A stretch of DNA of 64,000 nucleotides from the NCBI RefSeq assembly GCF_028737195.1, contig NZ_JAQZAJ010000002.1, positions 496,001 to 560,000 of the forward strand. Direction: 5' to 3'. Below the pieces are notes generated by a model, which saw nothing but the letters and a program-made list of their open reading frames with translations, made no database searches and was not told the DNA's origin. Source of the stretch: Pseudovibrio exalbescens. GTDB taxonomy: Bacteria; Pseudomonadota; Alphaproteobacteria; Rhizobiales; Stappiaceae. The translations under genes and the position numbers were made by a program. Shown one piece after another: positions 5,846 through 55,276 of the stretch; the stretch's first letter is position 1; each line of letters starts with the position of its first letter.

Positions 5846-5919
5846 CGATACTTCCTTTGTGAGCGAGGAGAGCGAGAAAGAAGAGGGCTCAAGCGTATTT
5901 GCCGCCTAAGTTTGTGATC

Positions 5920-5999
5920 GCTCCCTTCGCTGGCATTATCCAGATCAGGTCATACGGGTCTAATCTCAGCCCTTTCGGGCACCCCGGTTCACAGGGAAT
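5920..5999 (-). promoter_or_regulatory. TPP riboswitch (THI element) upstream of thiM
   Basis: Read on the minus strand, the leader contains the hallmark TPP-aptamer blocks in order: GGGGTGCCC, a GAAA-capped stem leading to GGCTGAGATTAGACCC, then ACCTGATCTGGATAATGCCAGCGAAGGGA-like sequence (given here in parts: ACCTGATCTGG, ATAATGCCAGCG, AAGGGA). The outer TTCCCT and AGGGA arms close the P1 helix. The aptamer ends about 75 bases before the thiM ATG. A purine-rich Shine-Dalgarno lies just before the ATG, so control may be translational; I do not see an obvious downstream T-tract terminator. Confidence 0.95.
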
Positions 6000-42151: not shown

Positions 42152-42454
42152 TCAGTCGTCTTCACCGTGATCAACGCCACCGTTCAGCCGTTCTCTCATT
42201 TCCTTGCCGGTCTTGAAGAACGGAACGTACTTCTCGCTTACCTCGACCTTTTGGCCGGTGCGAGGGTTGCGTCCCGTGCGGGCCGGACGGTTTTTCACCG
42301 AAAAAGCCCCAAAACCGCGTAACTCCACGCGATCCCCGCGCATGAGGGCTGAGGTTATCTCATCGAGAATTGCATTCACGATGTTCTCCACGTCCCGTTG
42401 ATAGAGATGCGGATTCTGTTCGGCGATCGTTTGAACCAATTCTGATTTAATCAT
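42152..42454 (-). CDS. ihfB: Integration host factor beta subunit
   Basis: DNA-bending HU/IHF family protein of 100 residues. The N-terminal helix pair begins MIKSELVQ; the beta arm carries [12 protein letters not shown] with the intercalating proline of RNPRTG; the ending [11 protein letters not shown] is typical of IHF-beta. I place the start at 42454, behind AAGGGGGGG. The start lies 8 bases inside sppA, suggesting coupled translation. The tail (GGVDHGEDD) is slightly longer than in E. coli. Confidence 0.95.
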
Positions 42455-43457
42455 GTTCTGCCCCCCCTTGCATAGAGCGAGTTGCCGCACCCGGAGCGTG
42501 CCAAACAGACACCAGACCGTCAAGCGACGAAGCCTGATCACCGAGGTTCTTTGCGGAATAGATCAATGCGTTCAAAAGATAATCCAGATTAGCTGGCAAG
42601 GAATTGCCAGAGCTGGCGTTTGCAAAAAGGCCAAGTTCCGTTTCTTTCGGTATCTTCCAATCGATAACCTTGAGATCGGATGGCACATTGCGTTCTTCTT
42701 CAAGCCACGTGATGGCAACTTCTTCGCCGCCGATGGCATCAACAAGCTTGTTTTCAACGGCCTGATGGCCGCTGTACACCTGCCCATTGGCCAGTGCGTG
42801 TGCTTCTTCAGATGTAAATCCACGCCGCTCGGCTACCAGCCCAACGAACCATTCGTAGGAATCCGTGACCAGACTCTCCAAAACCGCCTTGGCCTCTGGC
42901 GAGGCGGGCTCATAGAAGTTGGGTTCGGCCTTCAAGGGAGAACTCTTCACGGTGTCCATTTCCAGCCCGATCATGTCCAGCAAGCCCTTGGCGTTCCCGA
43001 ACTGAAAAAGAACCCCGATTGAACCCGTTAGAGAGTTGTATCGAGCAACCACATGGTCTGCGGCAATCGCCGTCATGTAGCCTGCCGATGCACCAATGGT
43101 TCCGATTGTGGCTACAACCGGCTTTTCCTCCGCCAGCTTGCGCAGAGCGCCATAGAGGGCCTCTCCGCCTGTCGTCGTTCCGCCAGGAGAATTGATGGAA
43201 ACAATGACGCCGCGTACCGAATCGCTCTCCGCTATTCGGGAAATCATCTCCAACCGTTCGCGATCGTCAAGAATGGCACCATTCACGGTGATGCGCGCAA
43301 TGTGTTGGCGGGACTTCGAAAAGTCAGCAACGCTGGAGTTCATCAGAATGAACGTACCAATGCCTAAAACGACGATAAGGAAACAAAGGATGCGCCAGAA
43401 CGATACTTTCCGCCTCAATCGGCGGCGATCTATTACGATGTCGCTGTCCAAACTCAT
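42447..43457 (-). CDS. sppA: Signal peptide peptidase SppA, short type (S49)
   Basis: Membrane-anchored serine protease that degrades cleaved signal peptides. One N-terminal transmembrane helix (about residues 21-40) precedes the S49 domain. The nucleophile is Ser124 in [10 protein letters not shown] and the general base is Lys176 in [10 protein letters not shown]; the 52-residue spacing equals that of Bacillus SppA (Ser147/Lys199). At 336 residues it is the single-domain form. It is the first gene of a likely sppA-ihfB-lapA operon. A GGGAG 12 bases before the ATG is the best ribosome site, a longer spacing than usual. Confidence 0.94.
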
Positions 43458-43661: not shown

Positions 43662-43961
43662 TCAGGATGTACCTAATTCCGCTTCTTCGCGGGCAATTGC
43701 CTGTTCCATGAGCTGTCGCCACAGCCCCTCATAGAAGTCCGGGTTCAAGTTTTCTGCGTCAGCATGGGCGCGGACGTTGCGCGCAACCTCTTCTACGCGT
43801 TCATTGATTCGGGCTGGCAGCCCCATTGGCTTCTTGATTTCGGCAGCGCGGTTGATGTAGCTCCACCGTTCCGCAAAAAGCGAAATCAGTTCTTTGTCCA
43901 GACGGTCAATCTCCTGCCGCAGTTGGGTCATGTCTGCGCAGTCTTGTGCTAAGCGATTCAT
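43662..43961 (-). CDS. Chorismate mutase (AroQ class)
   Basis: 99-residue all-helical chorismate mutase, which converts chorismate to prephenate for Phe/Tyr synthesis. Family residues are LRQEIDRLDKELISLFAERW (in short RQEIDRLDKELI), then a Lys in the AAEIKKP segment, and the C-terminal YEGLWRQLMEQAI helix, with the Arg and Lys side chains that bind the substrate carboxylates. I start at 43961, with AGAGG 6 bases upstream; a longer reading frame has no ribosome site. It is a free-standing mutase with no prephenate dehydratase fusion. Confidence 0.93.
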   Translation of the reverse strand: MNRLAQDCADMTQLRQEIDRLDKELISLFAERWSYINRAAEIKKPMGLPARINERVEEVARNVRAHADAENLNPDFYEGLWRQLMEQAIAREEAELGTS

Positions 43962-44225
43962 TCCTTGCCTCTTTTTTTGTGCGTCATGCTTAGGAGAACG
44001 CATAAAGATGTGCAAGCGCGGGCCGTTGCTTGGCAACTACTAAGGAACATTTGGGGAATTTGGAAAAAAGAGTGCCGCCAAGTTCCTCAGGAGGTGGGGG
44101 GGAGCTGGGAACAAGGCGGCATTATGAGTGGTCTATGGGACCAGTTGGACTTTCGTCCTTATTCAGGTCACTGTGTTTACCGGCTGCTCTGAAAATCCGG
44201 CGTGTCCAGTGATCGTTCTTACTTG
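43962..44225. other. Gene-free interval after chorismate mutase start
   Basis: 264 bases that must contain the chorismate mutase promoter on the minus strand. A 22-codon reading frame starting at 44124 on the plus strand has no ribosome site and looks accidental. I see no RNA gene or repeat here. Confidence 0.45.
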
Positions 44226-44404
44226 GCGCGATAGACTAGGGGCATAATCGATCGCGCTTTGTTTGGGAGCTCCGTAGCCGGTTGCTGCAAGGACGGCGTT
44301 CTAAGAAGAGCTCCCGCTCATCACTACGGCTTCGGGCGGACCGTAGGATGATCACGGTGCTGCGTTGCTTCCAACGCAAAATATCGTGGAGCGGTAATCA
44401 CCGC
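44226..44404. other. Dense cluster of perfect inverted repeats (possible structured RNA)
   Basis: Five inverted repeats follow in 180 bases: GCGCGAT/ATCGCGC (44226-44257, followed by TTTGTTT on the plus strand), GGGAGCTC/GAGCTCCC (44265-44315, enclosing GCCG/CGGC), CTACGG/CCGTAG extended to an 11-bp stem with one bulged A (44319-44351), TGCGTTG/CAACGCA with a CTTC loop (44361-44378) and GCGGT/ACCGC with an AATC loop (44391-44404). The CCGTAG at 44272-44277 could compete for the same CTACGG arm. The last three overlap the small reading frame on the minus strand. I cannot match this to 6S, SRP, tmRNA or RNase P RNA. Strand and existence of a transcript are unproven. Confidence 0.4.
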
Positions 44405-44473
44405 AGATGCTGCGAGCGCTAGAGACATGAATACTGGAAAGATCATGATCAGCTCTGCTGGGTTTGTGCTCAC
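44324..44473 (-). CDS. Small single-pass membrane protein, 49 residues (unrecognised)
   Basis: A short frame starting with GTG at 44473, preceded by GGAGGG (44479-44484) at an ideal 5-base spacing, and ending with TAG at 44324. The product has a 7-residue polar start (STNPAE), a hydrophobic helix (about residues 8-28: LIMIFPVFMSLALAASAVIT) and a short charged tail rich in His, Arg and Pro (EATQHRDHPTVRPKP). This looks like a membrane-anchored small protein with its C-terminus in one compartment. Nothing else in the interval has such a good ribosome site. I do not recognise the family. The coding evidence is the Shine-Dalgarno, the helix and clean ends; a shared structured region is the main rival explanation. 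Confidence 0.55.
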   Translation of the reverse strand: MSTNPAELIMIFPVFMSLALAASAVITAPRYFALEATQHRDHPTVRPKP

Positions 44474-44484
44474 AGCGACCCTCC

Positions 44485-45089
44485 GTTCTTTTTATTTTTT
44501 ACGTAAGGGTAATTTACACAAAGCATGCCAGTTTGGAATAGCGATAAAAACGGGAATTTTTGCCAGTTTGCAGCCGTGAAGTAGCAATCTGCAACTTGGG
44601 GTGATAGAAATGACAGGTATGGCTAAGCAATATGCAATTGTGCCCGAAACAAGGCGTACAACGTTTGATAGCTATCCCCGGATCACTGGCATTTCTTGGG
44701 TATATCTTGTTAAAAGATAACTCTGCGTAACATGGCATGTTGCGCCGAAGGTTTTTTTCAATAATATGTGCGACCTTTCCCGGCTACTTAATATCCGTCA
44801 ACTTTCAAGTGATTGTGGCGCAAAAGTGCAGAGAATTTAGTAGTTTCTGCAGTGTTTTTGAAATTTTGACAGGTATTCGATACTCCTCGCGCAACGAAAA
44901 AACAGTGAACAGTGTGTTCATCTTTTAGAACATGTTGCCTTGCGAAAGGTTTTCCTCGGAATGGTTTTTTAATAATATGATTTTTTGAGGCATGAGGTTC
45001 TGCCGCTAAGGCAATTTTTGGATGCTTCTTACCCATTCGACTGATGATTAACTCGACAGTTCTACTGGAGGTGGCGCACAGTTCCTCCG
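44485..45089. other. AT-rich interval without convincing genes
   Basis: About 600 bases, clearly more AT-rich than the rest of the window, with many runs of T and A. Several 60-80 codon open frames exist but lack ribosome sites and have low-complexity, Cys-rich products. It should hold promoters for the small gene at 44324-44473 (minus) and the acetyltransferase gene at 45090 (plus). Low GC could mark old horizontal DNA or simply a long regulatory region. Confidence 0.5.
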
Positions 45090-46307
45090 ATGCATGTCTC
45101 AGGTAGTGATTCAGAATTTAGAATGGGCAGCCAAACCCAAATAGCCCGAGGGGAAGTAGAGCTTCCTGAAAGAAAAGAGAAGGACAGATCCAAGAATCTG
45201 TCCCTTGCTGTTCTTGATTCACCTGACGGAATGGAGCGCAGCAAGCACCAGTGGCATGCGCTGGAAGAGCGGTGCGCACCTCATTCGGTCTTTACAAGCT
45301 GGCCTCTGTGCTTCGCTGCTTTGCAAAACCTGAGTGATCATGAGCGCGGCTGCATTTTTACAGTCTGGGATGGAGAGAAGCTCGTTGCGGTGTTGCCGTT
45401 GAAGCGTGTCGCGCGGCGTGGCCTTGCCAAACTGACCAATCTCATCTCGGAGGGGCATTCAACGCTCGACCTTATGGCCGATGAAGCTGTCTCGCGGTCC
45501 GACCTTCTGGCGGTTCTTGCGCCGGCTTTCAAGGCTGCTAAGGCCGACTTGTTGGAACTGCGCGAGTTGAAGATGAACCAGGCGCTCATGCAGTTCCTGG
45601 AATGGGCCGGTCATGCGCACAAGTTCAAGGGCACGACGGCGCAGCTGGACTTGCAAAGCAGCTCAAGCTTCGAGGACTATTTTGTCGATATCGGCGAAGA
45701 ACTGCGCCAACGCATGCATACGGGTCGTCGACAACTGGAAAAAGTCGCTCCGATCGAACACAAGATCATCACAGATCATCAGCAGCTTATAGAGCAAACA
45801 ATGCCCGAGTTTGGCCCGCTCGCCTCCATGGATGAAGCGCGCGTGCGGAAGCTAAGCTTCATTCGGGCGTTGGCATCGGCCCCAAGTGAAGCCTGTCGGG
45901 TCGTTCTTACAGTCATAAAGCACGGCGATCGGATGATTTCGCGCGAGTGGGGGGTCATTCACCGCAAAGGATACACGGCCTATGCGATCTGCCGCGATCC
46001 GGCCTATGACAAGTTTCATACGCATGCGCTTCATAACGCCGAAAACATCCGCATGTGCTTTGAGAACAAACTGAAGAGCATGGACTTTGGCGCACACCTT
46101 AAAACAGAAGCCATCGCTTGGACCAACAACCTGACTCCGGTGTTCGATGTTTATCGAGCTCTGACGCCAAAGGGGTATCTCTATCTCTATGGTTGGCGCG
46201 CTGCTCTTAAGCCTGCCTTGAAGTGGCTTGTGCGCAAGGGGCGCAAGCTGCTTGCCGTTGGATTTCGAAAGCTGCCAAGGCGCGCGTCTTCTTCATCTGC
46301 ATCATAG
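45090..46307 (+). CDS. CelD/BcsL-family GNAT acetyltransferase
   Basis: 405-residue protein with the Acetyltransf_6 (CelD/BcsL) fold: an N-terminal half ending near LDLMADEAVSRSDLL (in short DEAVSRSDLL), then a GNAT core with LRQRMHTGRRQLEK near residue 212 (a typical R-x3-GRR...LEK box), GLASMDEARV-like text (PLASMDEARV) near 249 and ENKLKSMDFG near 331. The C-terminus is strongly basic (KGRKLLAVGFRKLPRRAS), suggesting membrane or polyanion association. Members often modify exopolysaccharide or cellulose, but no polysaccharide genes are nearby. The ATG at 45090 is 18 bases from the nearest GGAGG, so the true start may be the ATG at 45123. Family call by eye. Confidence 0.75.
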   Translation: MHVSGSDSEFRMGSQTQIARGEVELPERKEKDRSKNLSLAVLDSPDGMERSKHQWHALEERCAPHSVFTSWPLCFAALQNLSDHERGCIFTVWDGEKLVAVLPLKRVARRGLAKLTNLISEGHSTLDLMADEAVSRSDLLAVLAPAFKAAKADLLELRELKMNQALMQFLEWAGHAHKFKGTTAQLDLQSSSSFEDYFVDIGEELRQRMHTGRRQLEKVAPIEHKIITDHQQLIEQTMPEFGPLASMDEARVRKLSFIRALASAPSEACRVVLTVIKHGDRMISREWGVIHRKGYTAYAICRDPAYDKFHTHALHNAENIRMCFENKLKSMDFGAHLKTEAIAWTNNLTPVFDVYRALTPKGYLYLYGWRAALKPALKWLVRKGRKLLAVGFRKLPRRASSSSAS

Positions 46308-55067: not shown

Positions 55068-55143
55068 GGGGCTATAGCTCAGTTGGGAGAGCGCGTGAAT
55101 GGCATTCACGAGGTCAGCGGTTCGATCCCGCTTAGCTCCACCA
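55068..55143 (+). tRNA. tRNA-Ala (GGC), copy 1
   Basis: 76-nt cloverleaf with encoded CCA. Acceptor GGGGCTA pairs with TAGCTCC (one G-U), D-arm GCTC/GAGC, anticodon stem CGTGA/TCACG with loop ATGGCAT giving anticodon GGC, variable AGGTC and T-arm AGCGG/CCGCT with TTCGATC. It reads GCC and GCU codons. Confidence 0.98.
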
Positions 55144-55200: not shown

Positions 55201-55276
55201 GGGGCTATAGCTCAGTTGGGAGAGCGCGTGAATGGCATTCACGAGGTCAGCGGTTCGATCCCGCTTAGCTCCACCA
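55201..55276 (+). tRNA. tRNA-Ala (GGC), copy 2
   Basis: Identical over all 76 bases to the copy at 55068-55143, with a 57-base spacer between them. The spacer shows no resemblance to another tRNA and no terminator, so both are likely cut from one transcript that ends at the strong terminator just downstream. Confidence 0.98.

Follow-up and report, generated by a model that had tools for sequence, protein, structure and literature searches.

The 49-residue open reading frame (ORF) at positions 44324–44473 on the minus strand of the window, the whole 64-kb stretch of DNA analysed, probably serves as the coding segment at the 5′ end of a candidate small RNA with a dual function, in which a membrane peptide is combined with an anti-Shine-Dalgarno-like riboregulator. 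The conserved element at 44064–44353 on the same strand, which shares 44324–44353 with the ORF, is almost certainly an RNA gene. Judged from the sequences compared, the RNA is the general part of this arrangement, and the peptide is optional, being retained by 4 of 16 species. The RNA family has no Rfam match, and the small membrane protein family is one that standard annotation would skip.

The GTG start codon of the ORF was located at 44471–44473 (minus strand), with the Shine-Dalgarno sequence GGAGGG (44479–44484, minus strand) 5 bases 5′ of it. Translation of 44324–44473 gave VSTNPAELIMIFPVFMSLALAASAVITAPRYFALEATQHRDHPTVRPKP before the stop codon, a peptide with an N-terminal membrane helix and a short charged tail ending in VRPKP; relatives were found at L045, L046, and L054. 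Its top 19-residue Kyte-Doolittle mean was 2.46, starting at residue 8. The GTG frame on the minus strand, the GGAGGG at 5 bases, and the single hydrophobic helix, all described in an earlier note on this DNA, were confirmed from the sequence. Among 790 start-codon and frame combinations of 40–60 codons in the window, three ORFs combined a Shine-Dalgarno-like tetramer with a helix mean of at least 1.6; the 49-residue ORF was the most hydrophobic of these three and the only one with GGAGG. The AlphaFold model of the peptide predicted a helix at residues 5–40 (mean pLDDT 76, pTM 0.39) and shows that helix and nothing further. The window peptide matched no Pfam or NCBIfam family at E ≤ 1, in searches where matches to short peptides are easily missed.

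The same note had placed the ORF in an AT-rich kilobase otherwise lacking genes. An AT-rich tract exists, mainly at 44500–45250 (GC 0.40–0.43), but the GC content across the ORF itself is about 0.48–0.53, and the conserved RNA gene that begins within the ORF on the same strand contradicts the supposed lack of genes. Upstream of the ORF, the block TGGCAY..TTRTGTA (44508–44530, minus strand) is kept in the four genomes with the ORF and is presumed to be the promoter region. A sigma-54 promoter is not claimed, because the block has a GG-N10-GT spacing instead of GG-N10-GC. A scan of the region for sigma-70 promoters found no site and gave a single terminator-like match, on the plus strand; the same scan omitted the minus-strand terminator, as the terminator loop is larger than the scan’s limit of 8. 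An imperfect palindrome, GTTGC-N5-GC(A/T)A, was also observed 5′ of the ORF in each of the four ORF carriers (44581–44595 in the window, minus strand), with a perfect form, GTTGCAAAAAGCAAC, in G004; it is possibly a regulator site.

The RNA core runs from hairpin 1 through the terminator U run. Hairpin 1 (44319–44350, minus strand, as are all following parts) carries the loop CCGCCCGAA, replaced by CUGCCCGAA in G015, and takes in the 3′ end of the ORF, with its final codons and its stop. Hairpin 2 (44266–44315) encloses hairpin 3 (44277–44297), which contains the invariant UCCUUGCAGCA. Hairpin 4 (44226–44257) has the conserved loop UA(U/C)GCCCCUA, and hairpin 5 (44168–44212), with a CAGAGCA loop region, is missing in G008. 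The element ends in a GC hairpin followed by a U run (44064–44120), a strong intrinsic terminator, whose loop at 44088–44106, AGCUCCCCCCCACCUCCUG, is C-rich and anti-Shine-Dalgarno-like. This loop, AGCUCCCCCC(C)ACCUCCUG, was identical across all 13 of 13 alignment rows except for the presence of 6 or 7 C. The loops of hairpins 1, 3, and 4 were, like that of the terminator, nearly invariant.

Folding of the minus strand at 44060–44365 gave a z value of −4.23, with none of 100 shuffles as good, compared with −0.85 and 20 of 100 shuffles for the plus strand of the same region. The alignment of 15 genomes showed the five hairpins and the terminator, with stems that vary by compensating substitutions. 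In the 12 distinct rows, 96.6% of cells were paired, both-sided changes occurred in 21 of 52 pairs, and the covariation score was 0.302; none of 500 shuffles, which take no account of relatedness among rows, reached any of these values. Slid controls were paired at just 27–42%, and the number of pair types was not above that of the shuffles (41 against 39.3, reached by 133 of 500). The terminator arms covary with each other. Rfam gave no match at the RNA locus at gathering scores, and two chance-level matches at E ≤ 5. A conserved structure with an intrinsic terminator at its end, as expected of the RNA gene of a dual-function small RNA, was found in all 16 genomes of the genus.

The genus search was made with the DNA around the ORF (window 44060–44620) as query, and the strongly conserved part proved to be that 3′ of the ORF. 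BLASTN found the RNA in 15 of 16 genus genomes with a single match each, and a second query recovered it in the sixteenth as two pieces at one place. The covariance models R1 and R2, built for the two halves of the RNA, detected the RNA a single time in every one of the 16 Pseudovibrio genomes and had no match in 71 genomes from six further genera of the family; the filters applied drop some weak matches. The hairpin-3 pattern had 25 matches in genome contig records, 12 in Pseudovibrio and 13 in others, and none of these 13 records carried any of the three other RNA motifs checked. An order-wide search for this pattern, allowing a single mismatch at most, gave 5 genomes out of 397; three belong to the window’s genus, and the two outside it had one mismatch each. 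Outside the genus, neither the DNA search nor either covariance model nor the pattern of hairpin 3 gave a supported case. A mobile origin of the RNA was also rejected, since searches at E 1e-5 found it in neither plasmids nor phages and it occurs as a single copy per genome.

On the same strand and 3′ of the RNA lie a chorismate mutase gene (CM_2, 43662–43961) and a gene at 42447–43457, which we take to be sppA-like. The gene directly 3′ of the RNA was chorismate mutase in 14 of 16 genomes and sppA in G004 and G007, where chorismate mutase was not found adjoining the RNA. The upstream gene in G007 and G008 carries repeats and is presumably that of ribosomal protein S1. In the sister-genus genome G016 (L175), the stretch 5′ of sppA is without the RNA. 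RNA-like sequence 5′ of sppA was also sought in ten genomes of other genera and rejected: nine stretches had no C-rich loop, and L177 gave none. At L173 and L174 the open frame starts far upstream, so the stretch examined there is not the true spacer.

The ORF is far more restricted than the RNA. A start codon 40–60 codons upstream together with a stop in hairpin 1 was found only in G000 (the genome of the window), G006, G004, and G007. The remaining 12 genomes have no such ORF and show CAG (10) or CGG (2) at the place of the stop codon. In all four ORF genomes, the first base of the stop codon, U, pairs within hairpin 1 as A-U or G.U, whereas the 11 remaining rows of the alignment (8 distinct) have G-C at this pair. 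The stop-making U is therefore confined to the hairpins of genomes with the ORF. In an rpoB tree these genomes formed two pairs, (G000, G006) and (G004, G007), and their union in one clade was neither supported nor rejected (p-AU 0.184).

G015 (L074) has 48 open codons 5′ of hairpin 1, in phase with the ORF and with a hydrophobic stretch of mean 2.12; this frame has no ATG, GTG, or TTG start and no hairpin stop. A frame of this kind occurred in 0.84% of shuffles of G015’s AT-rich DNA, and it may be a relic, a frame with an unusual start, or an AT-rich coincidence. At L047 and most other main-clade loci without the ORF, several genomes carry GAGAG-UAUCCCAU-UCUCUC 5′ of hairpin 1, possibly a small hairpin with a C-rich loop that replaces the coding part.

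The four peptides (G000, G006, G004, and G007) have 49, 49, 46, and 46 residues and 19-residue helix means of 2.46, 1.77, 2.09, and 2.15, respectively. The helix is N-terminal in each, and all have a short charged tail, mostly basic. In G004, the Shine-Dalgarno sequence is weak and lies far from the start codon. In 5000 dinucleotide-preserving shuffles per genome of the DNA upstream of the hairpin (190 bases in the window), an open frame of 40–60 codons with helix and Shine-Dalgarno sequence arose in 0.02% for G000; the values for the four carriers were 0.02, 0.10, 0.00, and 0.12%, which are not to be multiplied because the genomes are related.

Peptide similarity was scored against composition shuffles after removal of the final VRPKP and the three residues before it. 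It reached z values of 5.2 for G000–G006 and 3.6 for G004–G007, was marginal in three of the four cross-pair comparisons (z 1.8–2.1), and was not significant for G006–G004 (z 0.86). In each of the four pairs tested, from six possible pairs, frame 0 had no stops and scored best among the six frames; other frames of G000–G006 also reached z 3.6, from shared DNA. Nucleotide identity in the ORF body was 50–66%, against 57–61% for shuffled sequence. The architecture is therefore held while the DNA drifts, and what the four carriers keep is a length of 46–49 residues, the N-terminal membrane helix, and the stop inside the hairpin. Codon-position differences between G000 and G006 were 20, 19, and 24 of 40, with no clear third-position excess. 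The VRPKP ending is not countable as evidence for a protein, because this RNA sequence is also kept by genomes that lack the ORF; by this comparison, the invariant tail is explained by the RNA and not by the protein.

From these sequence features the peptide is likely translated, and we infer that it is inserted in the membrane. The proposal of the earlier note, translation into a small membrane protein, finds support in the comparison of the four carriers and is narrowed to 4 of the 16 Pseudovibrio genomes. Stops or frameshifts in relatives that nevertheless keep the nucleotide structure had been named there as counter-evidence. This pattern was seen in part, in the 12 ORF-less genomes, because the conserved nucleotide structure is that of the RNA overlapping the 3′ end of the ORF.

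The candidate dual-function RNA would act as follows. A single transcript of about 400 nt would run from slightly upstream of 44484 to the terminator near 44064. Its first third would encode the single-pass membrane peptide, with a short N-terminus, one helix, and a short charged tail, and the other 290 nt would fold into the five hairpins and the terminator. Translation of target mRNAs would be blocked when the C-rich, anti-Shine-Dalgarno-like loops base-pair with their ribosome-binding sites. The stop codon of the ORF lies in the 3′ arm of hairpin 1, which a ribosome completing the peptide would therefore have to open; a coupling between translation and the folding of this hairpin is thus likely. 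We infer the transcription, the target pairing, and any common pathway of peptide and RNA.

The complement of the terminator loop, with at most one mismatch, had 33 matches in the genome including the loop itself, compared with 24 for the reversed control. Reading of the 29 non-self sites gave two at a plausible ribosome-binding site. At L126 (G000:C1 near 377598) the site has one mismatch and is followed two bases on by the ATG of a frame of 369 codons; at L132 (G000:C1 near 940426) it has one mismatch and is followed directly by the GTG of a frame of 174 codons. Both contain an ordinary Shine-Dalgarno sequence, and on this sequence match they are possible candidate targets of the terminator loop; the loop-complement matches across the G000 genome established no target. 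The site at L151 was rejected as a target, as it lies within a frame, presumably that of an ABC transporter. L133 and L134 (G000:C1 near 980680 and 981336) belong to a GC-rich repeat carrying CCCCCCCTCCTG, in two copies about 650 bases apart; this looks like a repeat region and not a relative of the RNA.

The RNA might instead regulate independently, with the ORF an incidental open frame, untranslated or free of selection, that runs into hairpin 1. The 12 of 16 genomes that have the RNA but lack the ORF fit this explanation, as do the dictation of VRPKP by the RNA, the absent third-position excess, and the open hydrophobic frame without a usual start in G015. Against it, length, helix, start, and stop are kept in four genomes (two pairs) whose body DNA has diverged, shuffles produce such a frame at a rate of at most 0.12% per genome, and frame 0 is the best frame in every one of the four pairs tested; we therefore consider an incidental ORF unlikely. 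A further explanation is that the whole element acts in cis on the (chorismate mutase-)sppA genes that follow it, as their leader or attenuator; the ORF, where present, would then encode a leader peptide. The RNA lies in all 16 genomes directly before chorismate mutase or sppA on the same strand, and this constant co-direction makes a role in cis possible. Against it, the downstream gene varies (chorismate mutase in 14 genomes, sppA in G004 and G007) and the RNA does not, the terminator arms covary mutually, and no competing antiterminator was noticed on non-systematic inspection. This reading was judged improbable, more so than that of an incidental ORF.

Type I toxins are small peptides with one helix and a charged tail, and the ORF peptide resembles them in size, helix, and tail. 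It could thus be a toxin-like membrane peptide held down by its own structured RNA, which we regard as very improbable: the window peptide matches neither Pfam nor NCBIfam families, 12 of 16 genomes keep the RNA although they lack the ORF, and the RNA is present in a single copy per genome without a plasmid or phage match. An extension of the dual-function explanation, in which the translating ribosome anchors the small RNA at the membrane during peptide insertion and also holds hairpin 1 open, would make the RNA a translation-gated, membrane-tethered riboregulator. This extension is speculative and quite doubtful. If it were true, the regulatory form and the place of the RNA would depend on the synthesis of its own peptide, and the same RNA would act free of such control in species lacking the ORF.

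With the dual-function explanation preferred, one genus offers a conserved regulatory RNA with and without a peptide ORF, so that the gain or loss of coding in a small RNA is testable in natural relatives. The stop codon within a conserved hairpin likewise makes the coupling of translation and RNA folding directly testable. A search of open-access papers on Pseudovibrio small RNA and RNA-seq turned up no description of the RNA or the peptide among the papers listed, and the main text of one Pseudovibrio RNA-seq paper has no occurrence of small RNA terms (PMC11796379). Elsewhere in the window, Rfam detected a TPP riboswitch (RF00059, 67.4 bits) at 5903–5996 on the minus strand, followed by minus-strand frames, and two tandem tRNA-Ala (GGC) genes with equal scores at 55068–55143 and 55201–55276 on the plus strand, with 57 bases between them.

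Staphylococcus aureus RNAIII is large, folds into many hairpins with C-rich loops, and encodes a membrane-active peptide in its 5′ part. The Pseudovibrio RNA would be similar in these respects; it differs in having no Rfam match, in coming from another phylum, and in its predicted single-pass helix with a charged tail. Dual-function RNAs regulate by base pairing and encode a protein as well, and RNAIII is named as one of them in the passages of PMC8672173 on this class. According to the same passages, the base-pairing part of SgrST is conserved and its ORF is present in a subset of species (PMC8672173). SgrS/SgrT, as described there, resembles the Pseudovibrio RNA in the ORF lying 5′ of the pairing part, which is putative in Pseudovibrio, in the high conservation of that part, and in the restriction of the ORF to some species. 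The Pseudovibrio RNA differs in having no Rfam match and in an ORF that overlaps the first hairpin and encodes a membrane helix.

VcdRP of Vibrio cholerae, in the account given by PMC8672173, shares with the Pseudovibrio RNA a small ORF 5′ of a C-rich segment, base-pairing in VcdR and putatively so in Pseudovibrio, and an intrinsic terminator. VcdR works via four cytosines, and VcdP, of 29 residues, binds citrate synthase (PMC8672173). Its ORF was conserved in all species tested in that source, compared with 4 of 16 here. Sinorhizobium NfeR1 uses anti-Shine-Dalgarno loops in unpaired hairpin regions, as stated in the relevant part of PMC10746234, and on that description αr14/NfeR1 resembles the Pseudovibrio RNA in this feature. 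The three hairpins of αr14/NfeR1 each have an unpaired CCUCCUCCC, whereas CCUCCUCCC was found in 0 of 16 Pseudovibrio RNAs, which have no Rfam match and whose loops differ from one another. Compared with these systems, the candidate arrangement is unusual in that the stop codon of the ORF lies inside the first conserved hairpin of the RNA; otherwise, it would be a member of the dual-function small RNA kind.
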